DNA from: an uncultured Anaerotruncus sp.
GTDB taxonomy: Bacteria; Bacillota; Clostridia; Oscillospirales; Ruminococcaceae
DNA length: 64,000 nucleotides
Direction of reading: 5' to 3'
Assembly (NCBI GenBank): GCA_944385965.1
Contig: CALWZG010000030.1
Span: 1-64,000, forward strand
Position 1 is the first letter of the stretch; every line of letters begins with the position of its first letter. The translations under genes were made by a program, and so were the position numbers. A model generated the notes under the pieces. It did no database searches, was not told the origin of the DNA, and saw nothing but the letters and a program-made list of their open reading frames with translations. Below, piece after piece: positions 48,424-60,490 of the stretch.

Positions 48424-48942
48424 ATGCGGAAAACCAGCGATTTGGTCATGGGAGTGGTCGCCATGGGGCTGGGATGCTACCTGTTGTTCAGTGATTCCAT
48501 CATTCAGGGCAAGACCCTGTTCAACCCAGAGATTTATTGGAGTCAGGCCGACTCCTATCTGCGGATTTTAGGATTTGTGATGGCCCTTTTGGCCGCCATA
48601 TTGATGCTCCGGTGGCTGTTCACCGGCAGGAAAAGGGAGGAGCCGATTTCCAGTGAGGGAGCGGGAATCTTAAAGTACAGGCTGGATTGGCTGGTGATTT
48701 CCAGCTTCACCTCTCTGATTCTTTATATGATTCTGATTCCATGGATTGGGTTTCTTCCCGCCAGTTTCCTGCTGATTTGGGAGCTGAGTTTTTCCTTCCG
48801 GCTAAAGGAAACAGGACTGGATTGGCATGACCGGAAAAAAACTGCCAAGGCGCTGGTCAGCTGCGGAGTCTATGCTGTTGTGATGGTAAGTATTATGTCT
48901 TTTGTGTTTTCACAGTTTCTCAACGTAACCCTGCCCCAATAG
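48424..48942 (+). CDS. tctB: Tripartite tricarboxylate transporter small membrane subunit TctB
   Basis: 172 aa with four predicted membrane helices (about 5-23, 40-62, 83-105, 145-168). AAAGGAG precedes ATG. Small hydrophobic partner of TctA. Gene order B-C-A is the same as would be read in the second cluster at 57986-61053. Confidence 0.88.
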   Translation: MRKTSDLVMGVVAMGLGCYLLFSDSIIQGKTLFNPEIYWSQADSYLRILGFVMALLAAILMLRWLFTGRKREEPISSEGAGILKYRLDWLVISSFTSLILYMILIPWIGFLPASFLLIWELSFSFRLKETGLDWHDRKKTAKALVSCGVYAVVMVSIMSFVFSQFLNVTLPQ

Positions 48943-48963
48943 ATTATAAGGAGGTCATGAAAA

Positions 48964-50013
48964 ATGAAACGTTTGATAGCTTTGTTGATGGCTCTGTGTA
49001 TGGCGGCTTCTTTGGGGGCCTGCGGTTCGGGACAATCCTCCTCTGCCGCTCAGTCCTCGGAGCCAGTCCAGTCAGCCGATGGGGCTTCCTCATCCCAGAG
49101 CGGGTCCAGCCAGGAAACACAGGAAACAGCGGCGGCGTGGCAGCCTGAAAAACCGGTCCAATGCATTGTTCCCTTCGCGGCAGGGGGCGGCTCGGATATT
49201 CTCACCCGTCTGATTATCCAATACGCTGACATGCCTACCGAGATGGTGGCGGTAAATGTGGATGGCGGTGCCGGCTTGGTAGGCGGACAGCAATGCGCAG
49301 CTGCGGCACCGGATGGGTACACCCTTTTGGCCCATAATCCCATGAATTTGATTTCCCAGGGCTTGACAGGTACCTCAGACCTTTGGGAGCAGCTGACCCT
49401 GTTGGCCTTTGTAGTGGATGACTGGACCATGGTATGCACCAATACCGCTACCGGATGGAAAACTGCTGAAGATTTTATAAATTACGCCAAGGAACATCCT
49501 GGTGAGGTAAAATGGGGCGTGACCGGAACCCCCATTATTATAGCGGACAGCCATCGGGCCATGGAAGGACTGGGAATTGAATGTACCATCGTACCTTATG
49601 ATGGAGGCAATGAGACCCGCACCGCTTTAGCGGGAAATCATATCCAGATTGAGGTGGCCACCTCAGCGGATATTCGCAATGACGTGGAAGCAGGAGAAGT
49701 TATCCCATTGTTCGCCATCGCCCCCAACAGATGCCCCTTTATGGAGGATGTACCCACCCTGTCCGAGCTGGGAGTTCCTGTGGATTCCGGTGCCCCCAGA
49801 GCCTACTTCGCCCCCGCCAACCTGCCGGAGGAGATTGTGGACTATTACGACCAGCTGTTTAAGTCGGTCTGTGAGAACCCGGAATTTGTGGAGGCCTGCG
49901 AAAAGGTTGGAATGGTGGTCCAATATGTGGGTGCAGAAGAAGGCGCCCAGCGGATGAACAATTGGTATGAAAGCCTGAAACCAGTCTTTGAGAAATATGG
50001 ATTATCCGGCTGA
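48964..50013 (+). CDS. tctC: Tripartite tricarboxylate transporter binding lipoprotein TctC
   Basis: 349 aa. Lipoprotein signal with lipobox LGAC (about residues 17-20) and a Ser/Gln-rich linker. The body has the family motifs IVPFAAGGGSDILTRL, VNVDGGAGLVGGQQCAAAAP and DGYTLLAHNP. Ligands of TctC proteins include citrate, aromatic acids and sugar acids; the operon partners favour a sugar acid. A terminator-like hairpin follows at 50029. Confidence 0.93.
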   Translation: MKRLIALLMALCMAASLGACGSGQSSSAAQSSEPVQSADGASSSQSGSSQETQETAAAWQPEKPVQCIVPFAAGGGSDILTRLIIQYADMPTEMVAVNVDGGAGLVGGQQCAAAAPDGYTLLAHNPMNLISQGLTGTSDLWEQLTLLAFVVDDWTMVCTNTATGWKTAEDFINYAKEHPGEVKWGVTGTPIIIADSHRAMEGLGIECTIVPYDGGNETRTALAGNHIQIEVATSADIRNDVEAGEVIPLFAIAPNRCPFMEDVPTLSELGVPVDSGAPRAYFAPANLPEEIVDYYDQLFKSVCENPEFVEACEKVGMVVQYVGAEEGAQRMNNWYESLKPVFEKYGLSG

Positions 50014-50028
50014 GCCGATTTAGGTCAG

Positions 50029-50062
50029 GGAGGCTTTTGCGTTTCCGAAAGCCTCCTGTTTT
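50029..50062 (+). terminator. Intra-operon terminator or attenuator between tctC and tctA
   Basis: GGAGGCTTT (50029-50037) pairs with AAAGCCTCC (50048-50056), then TGTTTTT. Partial readthrough would give more binding protein than permease. Confidence 0.7.
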
Positions 50063-50182
50063 TACAAAGCCCGGCTTGAACCCCTTCTCCCTGAGGGACC
50101 GGCAGGGGTGATGCGGTTTGGCGGTTTTCTGCTCTTGCGGAAAGCTTTACTGGCGGTCCCAGGAAATAAAGGAGGTGTCTTT

Positions 50183-51685
50183 TTGAGTATTTTCGCCCAG
50201 GGCTTTCAGTCCCTGTTAAATGAGCCATTCTCGTTTCTGTTGATGACATTTGGCGTTTTTTTTGGTATAATATTTGGGTGTATACCAGGTTTGACCGCCA
50301 CCTTAGGGGTCATCCTGCTGATTCCGGTGACCTACGCCATGAGCCCGGTGATGGGTTTCTCCATGCTGCTGGGAATTTATGTGGGAGGCATCAGCGGCGG
50401 ACTGATTACCGCTACCCTTTTAAATATTCCAGGAACCCCTTCCTCCATCTTTACCTGCTGGGACGCTTACCCCATGTCAAAAAATGGGCAGCCTGGACAG
50501 GCCCTTTCCATAGGGGTATTCTCCTCTCTGATGGGAGGATTGTTTTCCGCTGTGGCGTTGATTTTTATTGCTCCTCAGCTGGCTAAGGTGGCGCTCCAGT
50601 TTGGAAACTGGGAACTGTTCGGCCTGACCCTGATGGCAATGTGTATCATCGCTGTGATGACCGAGGGAGACCCCCTGCGCAGTTCCGTAGGCCTGGTGTT
50701 TGGCTTGATGCTGGCGTCCATAGGGCTGGATTCCCTGACAGGCCAGCAGCGGCTGACCTTTGGCTCCTGGCAGCTATTGGGCGGGTTGGCCTCCACTTCC
50801 ATCATGATGGGATTGTTTGCCATTACCGAAATTCTCATGCAGACAAGGGAATTGTCTCACCATAAACAGAAGGTGTCCACCAAAGGGATGTCCTTCAAGC
50901 CCCCTGTGAAGGCGCTGAAGGGCTGCTGGCGGACCATGGGGGTGGGAAGCGTGATTGGAACCTTTATCGGTATCCTACCGGCCATTGGTCAGCAGACCGC
51001 CTCCTTGGTGACCTATAATTACGCAAAATCCACCTCAAAAACACCGGAACGGTTTGGAAAGGGAAATCCGGAGGGGATTGTGGCCTCGGAAACCGCCAAT
51101 AACGCTGTATGCGGCGGGGCGCTGATTCCTTTGATAACTTTGGGTATCCCTGGGGATATGACCACAGCAGCCCTTTTGGGCGGTCTGATGATTCATGGCT
51201 TGCAGCCAGGCCCGCTGCTGTTTTCCTCCAATCCCGGTATTATCGGCGCCATCATGCTTATCTTCCTGATGTGCAACCTTGTGATGTATCTGATGGAACT
51301 GGGTCTGATGAGGGTCTTTATCCGGCTGATTGACCTGCCGCGATATCTGCTGTTCCCCTTCATTGTGTTTTGCTGTATTTTGGGGGTTTACGCGTTGAAC
51401 AACCGGATTTTTGATATCTGGGTTCTGTTGGTGTTTGGTTTGCTGGGATATTTATTTACACTGTGCAAGGTCCCTCTTTCCCCAATCATTATGGGGTACC
51501 TGATGGGCAAAACCTTTGAGGTTAACTTCCGCAGGGCTATGATTTCGGCCCAGGGGGATTTTGGGGATTTATTCAACCGCCCAATTGCAGCCCTGTTTCT
51601 GGCAGCTTCCATCTTGTTTGTTTTGGTCCCGGTGGGGCTGCGGATACTGCGCAGGGCAAAAAAGAGCGGCGCTGCGACTATCTAA
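50183..51685 (+). CDS. tctA: Tripartite tricarboxylate transporter large permease TctA
   Basis: 500 aa, about 12 membrane helices. TTG 50183 follows AAAGGAGGTG; upstream in-frame codons lack a site and give an atypical N-terminus. TctA blocks: FGCIPGLTATLGVILLIPV, YVGGISGGLITATLLNIPGT, ALSIGVFSS, IGILPAIGQQTASLVTYN and GGALIPLITLGIPGD. Closely similar to the second TctA at 57986. Confidence 0.94.
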   Translation: MSIFAQGFQSLLNEPFSFLLMTFGVFFGIIFGCIPGLTATLGVILLIPVTYAMSPVMGFSMLLGIYVGGISGGLITATLLNIPGTPSSIFTCWDAYPMSKNGQPGQALSIGVFSSLMGGLFSAVALIFIAPQLAKVALQFGNWELFGLTLMAMCIIAVMTEGDPLRSSVGLVFGLMLASIGLDSLTGQQRLTFGSWQLLGGLASTSIMMGLFAITEILMQTRELSHHKQKVSTKGMSFKPPVKALKGCWRTMGVGSVIGTFIGILPAIGQQTASLVTYNYAKSTSKTPERFGKGNPEGIVASETANNAVCGGALIPLITLGIPGDMTTAALLGGLMIHGLQPGPLLFSSNPGIIGAIMLIFLMCNLVMYLMELGLMRVFIRLIDLPRYLLFPFIVFCCILGVYALNNRIFDIWVLLVFGLLGYLFTLCKVPLSPIIMGYLMGKTFEVNFRRAMISAQGDFGDLFNRPIAALFLAASILFVLVPVGLRILRRAKKSGAATI

Positions 51686-53172: not shown

Positions 53173-53201
53173 TTGCCTAGATAAATTTTCTGTGCTATAA
53201 T
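53173..53201 (+). promoter_or_regulatory. Promoter of the fluoride-riboswitch antiporter gene
   Basis: -35 TTGCCT (53173-53178), 17-bp spacer, -10 TATAAT (53196-53201). The predicted start (about 53208) coincides with the first G of the aptamer. Confidence 0.85.
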
Positions 53202-53207
53202 CCCTAT

Positions 53208-53303
53208 GGGAATGAAGTTCTCCCTTGGCGAAAGCCTAAAACGCTTATGAAGCTGATGACTTCTGCAACTCAGGATAGTTGCAGAGTTATCAGCTTTTTA
53301 TTT
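53208..53303 (+). promoter_or_regulatory. Fluoride riboswitch (crcB motif) with terminator expression platform
   Basis: The aptamer elements occur in order: GGGAATGAAGTTCTCCC (53208-53224), AAAACGC, a GCTT-ATGA-AGC hairpin, and CTGATGACTTC (53253-53263), whose ACTTC can pair back to GAAGT. An extra GGC-GAAA-GCC hairpin (53227-53236) is inserted. The 3' part of the aptamer (53251-53270) pairs with 53277-53295 into a long stem followed by TTTTTATTTT, so terminator and aptamer exclude each other. Fluoride should stabilise the aptamer and switch the gene on. Confidence 0.85.
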
Positions 53304-53340
53304 TGCCAAGGGCAAAAATAAATTTAAAGGGGAAGAAAAT

Positions 53341-54546
53341 ATGCTGACAAGTCTTGCGTTGATTTTTATTGTGGGTATGAGCCTGGGGTGGATGATTTCC
53401 AGGCTTCGGCTGCCCAGCCTTTTGGGAATGTTGATAACCGGTATCCTGTTGGGTCCTTATGTATGGAATCTTCTGGATGATTCCATTTTAGGCATTTCAG
53501 CTGATCTGCGGCAGCTTGCCTTAATTATTATCCTAACCAGGGCTGGACTTTCACTCAATTTGGAGGACTTAAAAAAGGTAGGCCGGCCAGCGGTTCTGAT
53601 GTGCTTTGTTCCTGCCTGCTTTGAAATCCTGGGAATGGTGGTGCTGGCTCCAATTTTGCTGCACATTTCAATTCTGGATGCTGCCATTATGGGCGCTGTG
53701 GTTGCTGCTGTTTCTCCCGCGGTGATTGTTCCCAAAATGCTGCGTCTGATGGAGGAGGGCTATGGGACCCGGGAAAGCATCCCCCAGTTGATTATGGCGG
53801 GTGCGTCTGTGGATGATGTGTTTGTAATTGTTATGTTCTCCTCTTTCACTGGACTTGCCCAGGGAGGGGAAATTTCTCCTGTCACATTTGTACAAATTCC
53901 AATCTCTATCATAACTGGTATTATAACTGGTATGGCAGTTGGTATGGCGTTTGGTGAACTATATCGGCGAGTCCATGTCCGTGATTCTATTAAGGTTGTT
54001 GTATTATTGAGTCTTTCTTTTCTGCTTATCGCACTGGAAAATGGAGTAAAAGGACAAATTCCTTTCTCTGGGCTGCTTGCGGTTATGAGCTGTGGAATTG
54101 CTGTCAAACTGCGCCGGCCAGAGGTTGCGGAAAGGCTCTCCACCAAGTACTCTAAGCTTTGGATTACCGCTGAAATTTTACTTTTTGTTTTGGTTGGTGC
54201 CACAGTAGACATCAAATACGCATTAGCTTCCGGCGTGTCCGCAATCTTGGTGATACTTGGTGCGCTGGTATTCCGTATGATAGGTGTTTTTGTCTGTCTC
54301 CTCAAAACCAAACTAGCTCTAAAGGAGAGGCTGTTTTGTATGATTGCCTACATGCCAAAAGCGACTGTACAGGCTGCTATTGGTTCAATTCCACTGACTA
54401 TGGGCCTTTCATGTGGGCATGTTGTATTAACAGTTGCGGTACTGGCGATTTTGATTACAGCCCCTTTAGGAGCCTTTGCTATTGATATGACCTATCACAA
54501 ACTTCTTAAGCGGGAACCAGAAACGACAGAAAATCAAACCATGTAA
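53341..54546 (+). CDS. Cation:proton antiporter under fluoride control
   Basis: 401 aa, about 12 membrane helices, CPA-family (NhaP/Kef-like membrane domain with no RCK tail). Blocks: LPSLLGMLITGILLGPYVWN, LILTRAGLSLNLEDLKK-type segment and GASVDDVFVIVMFSSF, where the paired Asp residues are the ion-binding site, plus MPKATVQAAIGSIPL. Reported fluoride regulons include Na+/H+ antiporter genes besides crcB and CLC-F (from memory). Its role may be fluoride or proton balance during fluoride stress. AAAGGGGAAG precedes ATG. Confidence 0.92.
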   Translation: MLTSLALIFIVGMSLGWMISRLRLPSLLGMLITGILLGPYVWNLLDDSILGISADLRQLALIIILTRAGLSLNLEDLKKVGRPAVLMCFVPACFEILGMVVLAPILLHISILDAAIMGAVVAAVSPAVIVPKMLRLMEEGYGTRESIPQLIMAGASVDDVFVIVMFSSFTGLAQGGEISPVTFVQIPISIITGIITGMAVGMAFGELYRRVHVRDSIKVVVLLSLSFLLIALENGVKGQIPFSGLLAVMSCGIAVKLRRPEVAERLSTKYSKLWITAEILLFVLVGATVDIKYALASGVSAILVILGALVFRMIGVFVCLLKTKLALKERLFCMIAYMPKATVQAAIGSIPLTMGLSCGHVVLTVAVLAILITAPLGAFAIDMTYHKLLKREPETTENQTM

Positions 54547-57985: not shown

Positions 57986-59485
57986 TTATGCCATATTCAA
58001 ACGATTTCGGCCTTTACGGAAACTGGCACTGAATATGGGCGCCAGCAAGAAAAGTACTGCTACCCCAAGACATACCAAGGCGATGGGCCGCTGTAAGACT
58101 GCGCCGAAGTTTCCATTTTCGGCGGTCATAGCCATACGGAAGTACTTTTCAACCAGAGGTCCAAGAATATATCCCAGAATAACAGGGGCCATATCCACCT
58201 TGAACTGGGTCAGGATATAAGCGGCCACACCTGAGATAATGAGAACCCACAGGTCGAAGGTTCGGTTGTTCAAGGCGAAGGTTCCCAGCAGGCAGAACAT
58301 CAAGATGACCGGGAACAGATAGGAAAACTTAATATTTACTGCCTTTACGAAAATGCGGATAAGCCCTAATTCCATCACATACATTACAATGTTGGATAAG
58401 AAGTAAGCCACCATAATGGCGCCCACTACATCAATGTTGGTCTTGAACAGCAGAGGACCAGGCTGGAGGCCATGAATCATCAGTCCCCCAATCAGAGCGG
58501 CAGTTGTCAAATCTCCAGGAATTCCAAGGGTGACCAGAGGGATTAACGCGCCGCCGTTTACAGCATTGTTGGAGGTTTCGGAAGCGCAGATTCCCTCAGG
58601 GGAACCATGTCCAAACCGTTCAGGATGCTTGGAAAGTTTTTTCGCCTGATTATAGGTGATGAGTGTGGCGGCGTTCTGCCCAATTCCGGGCAGGATGCCA
58701 ATGCCTGTGCCATAAAGACAGCCCAGCAGGATAGGAACACTGCATCCCTTCATCTCCCGGATGGGGGGAAGAAAGGACATTTTACCAAGATGAATGTCCT
58801 TTTTTTCCTTTCCAAGGGTGTGGCTCTGTACCAGAATTTCACAGATGGCGAACAGTCCCATCATAAGGGCGGTGGATTGCAGACCGCTCATCAGCTGCCA
58901 GGAGCCGAAGGTAAGTCTCTGGGCACCAGAAACCGCATCAATTCCAATACTGCCGCAGACAATTCCCAACAACGCCCCAATCAGTCCCTTCACTAGGTCA
59001 TCAGAGGCCATAGTGATGACCACCGCCAGCCCCAGCAAAGCCACAGAGAAATATTCCCAGTTTCCGAAAATCAGAGAGATTTTTGACAGGGGAGGCGCAA
59101 TGAAAAACAGCGCCATAGCTGAAACGGTACCTCCTATCAGAGAGGCGAATACACCAATCGAAAGGGCTTGCCCAGGCTTTCCGTTGTGGGCCATTGGGTA
59201 TCCGTCGTAACAGGTGAAGATTGAGGAGGGGGTACCGGGAATATTGATGAGGGTGGCGGTAATCAGTCCGCCGCTGATACCGCCTACATAAATGGCAATC
59301 AGCAGGGTCAGCCCCTGTACGGGGGTCATACTGTATGTAAAAGGAATCATCAGGGTAACGCCCAGCGTAGCGGTCAGGCCGGGGATGCACCCAAAAACAA
59401 TCCCCAGAAAGATACCCCCCGCCAAGAGTACCAGGCACATAGGGTCAGAAAAAATTTCGGAAAAGCCGACTATGATTGCTTCCAT
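57986..59485 (-). CDS. tctA: Tripartite tricarboxylate transporter large permease TctA (second copy)
   Basis: 499 aa with about 12 helices and the same blocks as the first copy: FGCIPGLTATLGVTLMIPF, YVGGISGGLITATLINIPGT, IGILPGIGQNAATLITYN and GGALIPLVTLGIPGD. Last gene of a minus-strand operon (dctP-type, tctB, tctC, tctA). A paralogue of the gene at 50183. Confidence 0.95.
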   Translation of the reverse strand: MEAIIVGFSEIFSDPMCLVLLAGGIFLGIVFGCIPGLTATLGVTLMIPFTYSMTPVQGLTLLIAIYVGGISGGLITATLINIPGTPSSIFTCYDGYPMAHNGKPGQALSIGVFASLIGGTVSAMALFFIAPPLSKISLIFGNWEYFSVALLGLAVVITMASDDLVKGLIGALLGIVCGSIGIDAVSGAQRLTFGSWQLMSGLQSTALMMGLFAICEILVQSHTLGKEKKDIHLGKMSFLPPIREMKGCSVPILLGCLYGTGIGILPGIGQNAATLITYNQAKKLSKHPERFGHGSPEGICASETSNNAVNGGALIPLVTLGIPGDLTTAALIGGLMIHGLQPGPLLFKTNIDVVGAIMVAYFLSNIVMYVMELGLIRIFVKAVNIKFSYLFPVILMFCLLGTFALNNRTFDLWVLIISGVAAYILTQFKVDMAPVILGYILGPLVEKYFRMAMTAENGNFGAVLQRPIALVCLGVAVLFLLAPIFSASFRKGRNRLNMA

Positions 59486-59500
59486 CCGTTTTCCTCCTTT

Positions 59501-60490
59501 TTATGCCTCCTGTTTCATCTCGTCGAACATGGGCGCAATGTCCTTTACCCATCCATCAATCTTGGTTTGAAGCTCGCTTCCAGGGACGAAGTTGACCTCC
59601 AGACCCAGGCTCAGAACCTTCTGCTGAAACTCCTCATTGCTGCATACCTGGGCGATAGCGTCACTGATGACCTGGATTTTTTCGGGACTGGTACCCTTTG
59701 GAGCATACATGCCACGAGGCTTGGTGGTAACCACATCATACCCCACCTCTTTGGTGCAGGGAACATCAGGCAGGGATTTGGAGCGCCGGTCGCTGATTAC
59801 CAGCAAGGGAACCAGGTCGCCGGATTCCACGGAAGCCTGAATATCCGCTCCGGTGTTGACGCTGAGCTGAACATGATTTCCCATGGCCGCTACCTTGTTG
59901 TCTGAGCCGCTGTCATAGGGCACCACAGTTACATCATCCTTAATGCCCATAGCGTCCAATACCCGCAGACAGTCCGCCATGTTGCAGTTCATGGAACCGG
60001 TATTTCCAACCTTGACCTCACCGGGATGGGCCTTGACATACTCTATAACATCCTCCAGAGAGGTCCAGCCGCTCTGCTTGTTGGTCACCAGGAAATTGAA
60101 GTCATCCGCGATTCCACAAATCAGCTCCAGCTCTTTATAAAGCTCCACATCGGTGGTTCCGCCCAAGGTATAGGAGACAACATCCATGGGGTTATGAGCC
60201 AGCAGCGTGTAGCCATCATTGGCGGAATTAAAAGCCTGTTGGCAGCCGGTATAACCCGCCGCTCCATCCACATTGATAACCACAAAATTTTGGTCGTTGG
60301 GAAGCTCTAAGTATTCCATCATTGAGCGTGTCAGCACATCAGAGCCGCCGCCTGGAGCAAAGGGTACAATGACATTGATGGACTTGGAAGGATAATCCGC
60401 CTCGGACGAACCGCTGCTTTGACAGCCGCACAGCATCGCTCCCGCCATCATGACACAAAGGCTCCCTTTTAAAATTCCTTTTACGTTCAT
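59501..60490 (-). CDS. tctC: Tripartite tricarboxylate transporter binding lipoprotein TctC (second copy)
   Basis: 329 aa. Lipobox LCGC at about residues 20-23, Ser-rich linker, then INVIVPFAPGGGSDVLTRSM, VINVDGAAGYTGCQQAFNSA and YTLLAHNPMDVVSY. The VDG(G)AG and HNP motifs are shared with the first copy, so both probably bind ligands with a similar carboxylate head. 15 bp before tctA. Confidence 0.94.
   Translation of the reverse strand: MNVKGILKGSLCVMMAGAMLCGCQSSGSSEADYPSKSINVIVPFAPGGGSDVLTRSMMEYLELPNDQNFVVINVDGAAGYTGCQQAFNSANDGYTLLAHNPMDVVSYTLGGTTDVELYKELELICGIADDFNFLVTNKQSGWTSLEDVIEYVKAHPGEVKVGNTGSMNCNMADCLRVLDAMGIKDDVTVVPYDSGSDNKVAAMGNHVQLSVNTGADIQASVESGDLVPLLVISDRRSKSLPDVPCTKEVGYDVVTTKPRGMYAPKGTSPEKIQVISDAIAQVCSNEEFQQKVLSLGLEVNFVPGSELQTKIDGWVKDIAPMFDEMKQEA

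Follow-up and report, generated by a model that had tools for sequence, protein, structure and literature searches.

Why does a fluoride riboswitch in an uncultured Anaerotruncus sp. control a cation/proton antiporter instead of crcB, and does this antiporter export fluoride itself or does it correct pH and sodium during fluoride stress? The question was raised in an initial annotation of the window, the whole stretch of 64,000 nucleotides analysed here, and it is a real one. Control of Na+/H+ antiporters by fluoride riboswitches is already published. Among the genes under such riboswitches, only the exporters are more common than these antiporters, according to a 2024 review (PMC11139923) that cites Baker et al. 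2012, and C. difficile has a fluoride riboswitch operon (CD0656-7) with an NhaP-type antiporter (PMC11477304). Riboswitch antiporters have been linked to pH homeostasis (PMC11139923), and their frequent control by fluoride has so far been explained only by this analogy. In a literature search mostly covering papers outside subscription journals, no antiporter of this class was found to have been tested or shown to act in fluoride resistance.

The riboswitch and its leader

All features of the locus lie on the forward strand. A promoter of the form TTGCCT-17-TATAAT with an extended TG (53173-53201) matches 10 of 12 consensus bases, and from its position a transcription start at about 53206-53209 is predicted. 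The P1 stem-loop begins at 53208, so transcription should start at the aptamer, as the initial annotation had proposed. A covariance-model search confirmed the fluoride riboswitch aptamer itself (RF01734, 53199-53272) with a score of 45 bits, where the gathering score is 34, and an E-value of 3.1e-9 over all Rfam families. It is the sole Rfam match in the window and the sole fluoride riboswitch found in the genome.

In the covariance alignment, P1 (53208-53224) has a loop with the invariant AUG (53212-53214) and with the 5' strand of the pseudoknot, GAAGU (53214-53218). The 3' strand, ACUUC (53259-53263), was read from the sequence and gives five Watson-Crick pairs. The adjoining U53219 and G53258 are able to wobble, and switching is reported to depend on such a pair at the same end of the pseudoknot (PMC11077080). 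The P3 stem (GCUU/AAGC) was placed at 53243-53253 by the same alignment. The letters GCUGAUGAC are retained in the aptamer, as is the loop AUG, and the conserved core letters are invariant across 30 relatives. Position 53241 is an A where at least 90% of the relatives have C (AAAACGC for AAACCGC), and this A is common to a Megasphaera locus (L182), itself a riboswitch-antiporter relative.

The hairpin GGC-GAAA-GCC inserted in J1/2 (53227-53236) had been regarded as unusual, but it is common in relatives. Of 81 distinct inserts, 78 are able to form a hairpin of at least 3 bp, whereas shuffled sequences averaged 30 and never exceeded 41.

The overlapping terminator that had been described is also present. 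Its stem (53249-53270 paired with 53277-53297) is followed by a T-rich run, so that the intrinsic terminator covers 53249-53304, with 21 bp, a folding energy of -29.7 kcal/mol and a z-score of -7.0; none of 200 shuffles was as good. It was not detected by a simple terminator scan, probably owing to a bulge in the stem. The 5' arm holds the 3' strands of both P3 and the pseudoknot, and aptamer and terminator are therefore mutually exclusive. The leader thus has the classic layout of an ON switch, which has also been described for the crcB motif (PMC2864571). A Shine-Dalgarno-like AAAGGGG (53326-53332) lies 8 nt before the ATG.

The fold of the full leader also contains a long extra helix, built on a perfect complement of 8 bases between CCCTTGGC (53222-53229, in the P1/hairpin arm) and GCCAAGGG (53306-53313, past the terminator). 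This pairing was rejected as chance, since it is not kept even in the 82%-identical locus L128.

The antiporter

The gene that follows (53341-54546) encodes 401 amino acids with a single domain, Na_H_Exchanger (PF00999, 146 bits), which bears out the initial assignment to the CPA-type antiporters. The only NCBIfam matches are to potassium/proton antiporters and all are below the cut-off. In a sequence search of the PDB, human and bison NHA2 come first (5.8e-40) and archaeal NhaP next. The AlphaFold model has a pLDDT of 84.8, and Foldseek ranks NHA2 best by E-value (7.8e-17), with NhaP also very similar (TM-score up to 0.85); the fold is of the NhaA type. Profile, PDB search, alignment and fold thus agree on an NHA2-like CPA2 cation/proton antiporter.

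The ion site of NHA2 consists of D278, D279, E215, R432 and K460 (PMC12072577). These residues of the human protein align with D158, D159, E95, R312 and K340 of the antiporter, all of which are invariant in 20 riboswitch-linked relatives. As judged by sequence, the protein is a member of this family with an intact ion site, and because the site is invariant it should be a working cation/proton antiporter, although the transported ion is not fixed by sequence. Electroneutral exchange has been proposed for this set of residues (PMC6181914), and the product is probably an electroneutral NHA2-type Na+(Li+)/H+ antiporter.

Distribution of the riboswitch and the antiporter

A fluoride riboswitch was found in 33 of 149 related genomes, and 24 of the 33 also have this antiporter (weak matches in G010 and G114 were judged to be chance and are excluded from the 33). 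The association is almost complete from the other side, as 24 of the 25 antiporter genomes carry a fluoride riboswitch when 5.5 would be expected. In these relatives it lies directly upstream of the antiporter, and the remaining riboswitches precede crcB, CLC-F-type or other genes. Comparison of the 80 closest antiporter loci in named GTDB genomes (58-82% identity) gave 64 in which a riboswitch passes the Rfam cut-off; in 63 of these it immediately precedes the gene. A few further ones with scores below the cut-off were spotted by eye. The loci span Clostridia, Erysipelotrichia, Megasphaera, Bacteroidales and Brachyspira. With these numbers, and with the class already published, the arrangement is not exceptional. 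A hidden CrcB or CLC-F adjoining the antiporter was also considered and rejected; neither CrcB nor CLC was found within 3 kb of the antiporter in the 80 loci, and positive controls worked.

The nearest relative, L128, has neighbour genes unrelated to those in the window, and the antiporter was absent from all ten other genomes sampled in the genus of the window. The switch and the gene therefore seem to travel together as one cassette. The locus in the window is flanked by two tripartite tricarboxylate transporter sets on opposite strands (48424-51685 and 57986-60490), both with TctA/TctC, and with TctB in the first.

Some related loci contain additional genes. In Anaerotignum neopropionicum (L129:720-4179), a riboswitch is followed by a NifU-like scaffold gene, a GGGtGRT protein (PF14057), a universal stress protein and the antiporter. 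A NifU-like gene headed by a riboswitch is likewise found in L121 (G133:C25), just upstream of a second riboswitch and the antiporter. An iron-sulfur type pair of genes under fluoride control would merit attention. In L120 (G043:C40), a pair of fluoride riboswitches separated by about 2 kb precedes genes that were named by eye as a MutS-like ATPase and an MFS-like transporter. In Firmicutes UBA6113 (L139:2710-4694), the antiporter and the gene for a universal stress protein lie between two fluoride riboswitches.

Exclusion between the antiporter and CrcB

The statement that the antiporter is found instead of crcB holds for the genome as well as for the locus, since a profile search with PF02537 gave no match in the window genome, which is 95.8% complete. 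The same pattern is seen in two larger samples, which have a few genomes in common and for which the P values ignore relatedness: no genome has both proteins among the 149 relatives (25 carriers of the antiporter and 23 of CrcB; 3.9 expected, P 0.01), and among 391 genomes of the class, where 63 carry the antiporter and 75 carry CrcB, one has both (12.1 expected, P 8e-6). The sole overlap, in G513, is a weak match with 34% identity. In the genus of the window, the antiporter occurs in one genome and CrcB in five, and the two proteins alternate within genera also in g126, g135, g181 and g214. As far as could be found, this near-exclusion, including that within genera, is new; no paper reporting it was found in a search mostly covering work outside subscription journals. 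The two known exporters, CLC-F and Fluc, likewise exclude each other (PMC11139923).

The exclusion suggests, from gene content, that the antiporter functionally replaces CrcB. A helper in pH balance is not expected to exclude CrcB, and replacement of export, whether direct or indirect, thus deserves consideration. Neither CrcB nor any CLC was found in 14 of the 25 antiporter genomes among the relatives (11 of the 14 are at least 95% complete) or in 25 of the 63 in the class sample. This absence of known exporters was not accepted as proof of an exporter role because the antiporter, CrcB and CLC are all missing in about 45% of the sampled genomes.

Proposed mechanism and alternatives

The anatomy of the leader suggests a transcription-termination ON switch. 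Without fluoride, the nascent leader would form the terminator and transcription would halt. With fluoride, the Mg-bound ion would steady the pseudoknotted aptamer and keep its 3' part from the terminator, so that the antiporter is transcribed. The antiporter would then exchange Na+ (or another cation) for H+, and this exchange would most likely ease the acid and cation stress that arises when HF enters the cell and dissociates in the cytoplasm. In lineages without CrcB it would probably be the main fluoride-induced defence. The account as a whole, a fluoride ON riboswitch with an NHA2-type antiporter that acts against stress from HF, is considered rather probable. There are several points against it. 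The usual direction, Na+ out and H+ in, acidifies the cytoplasm and does not alkalinise it, and protons could be exported only with a strong enough inward Na+ gradient or with a different cation. Nor is it obvious why a protein that only helps with pH should exclude CrcB. The A at 53241 speaks against a fluoride switch, though the Megasphaera locus shares it.

The exclusion leads to a more far-reaching but tentative suggestion, that the riboswitch-linked NHA2-like antiporters constitute a third, CrcB-replacing route to fluoride resistance, either as direct exporters or by expulsion of fluoride via the pH difference. With direct export, they would join Fluc/CrcB and CLC-F as a third class of fluoride exporter in bacteria. 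This is kept in consideration by the near-exclusion with CrcB in both samples, by the alternation within genera, that of the window included, and by the many antiporter genomes that lack CrcB and CLC alike. The conserved cation/proton active site, on the other hand, favours correction of pH and Na+ over export of F-; every NHA2 site residue is invariant and no loss that would hint at an anion substrate was seen. The exclusion may partly reflect phylogeny, and the absence of exporters is not telling by itself when so many sampled genomes lack all three proteins. Direct export is therefore regarded as unlikely.

Indirect expulsion, in which protons taken in against Na+ would lower the pH difference across the membrane so that less fluoride is trapped and it leaves as HF, agrees with the normal direction of Na+/H+ antiporters and explains how an antiporter could replace an exporter. 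HF permeation is the main route of fluoride entry, and yeast acclimated to fluoride tolerates a lower internal pH (PMC11139923), which is in line with this explanation. Acidification harms the cell too, however, and the explanation is judged decidedly unlikely.

The exporter might also be encoded elsewhere in the genome. The initial remark that no CrcB/Fluc or CLC-F gene was in sight stands for CrcB but has to be modified for CLC-F, as one CLC related to CLC-F was found on a contig separate from that of the window (C61, L002:1288-2565). Among solved structures it matches CLC-F from Enterococcus casseliflavus best (5.8e-63, compared with 5e-9 for a chloride CLC). In a phylogenetic tree, 30 CLCs of this type are placed beside and not inside the CLC-F group, which takes in riboswitch-linked CLC-F proteins, and both groups are far from the chloride CLCs. 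Tree and PDB match thus rule out a plain chloride CLC. A bona fide CLC-F was not accepted either, because the clade has the motifs GTNLV, GREGA and GGEIVP in place of the three CLC-F signatures (GNNLI or GMGLI, GREGT or V, and GEVTP; PMC11139923). This sister clade is present in about 40 of the 149 relatives. The protein is not called a fluoride exporter here, though it may be one. If it were expressed constitutively as the real exporter, the antiporter would only assist. The position beside CLC-F would fit such a role, but the differing motifs argue against it, the clade does not avoid CrcB (5 genomes with both, 6.2 expected), the gene does not adjoin a riboswitch, and many riboswitch-antiporter genomes have no CLC at all. 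This explanation is considered highly improbable.

A decayed or non-responsive aptamer, for which the substitution at the conserved position 53241 could be cited, is hardly credible with a full-length match and with core, pseudoknot and terminator intact.

The preferred reading, a fluoride-induced antiporter that relieves stress from HF, and the replacement of export that the exclusion brings into question can now be compared experimentally. The present comparison delimits an NHA2-like family that avoids CrcB and takes the riboswitch with it in Firmicutes, in some Bacteroidota and in Brachyspira. The pairing is widespread in gut Clostridia, and gut bacteria that can be cultured, among them Agathobaculum, Anaerotignum and [Clostridium] symbiosum, now allow a test of whether the antiporter is a helper or a replacement.

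Comparison with known systems

The antiporter has the same fold as NHA2/SLC9B2 (PDB 7b4l and 7p1k) and the same ion-site residues at all positions compared. It differs in being only about 30% identical, in having no N-terminal extension and in a tyrosine that replaces a tryptophan of NHA2 in the invariant stretch YxPKATVQAAIG.

The leader has P1, P3, pseudoknot and conserved core in common with the crcB leader of Bacillus cereus (RF01734). In both, the terminator lies over the 3' strand of the pseudoknot and a U-G pair is possible at the pseudoknot end. Compared with that leader, the one in the window has an extra hairpin in J1/2, A for C at 53241 and an antiporter as its target. CD0656-7 of C. 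difficile resembles the locus in that an Na+/H+ antiporter is under a fluoride riboswitch, but there the antiporter follows a CLC-type gene, whereas in the window it stands alone.
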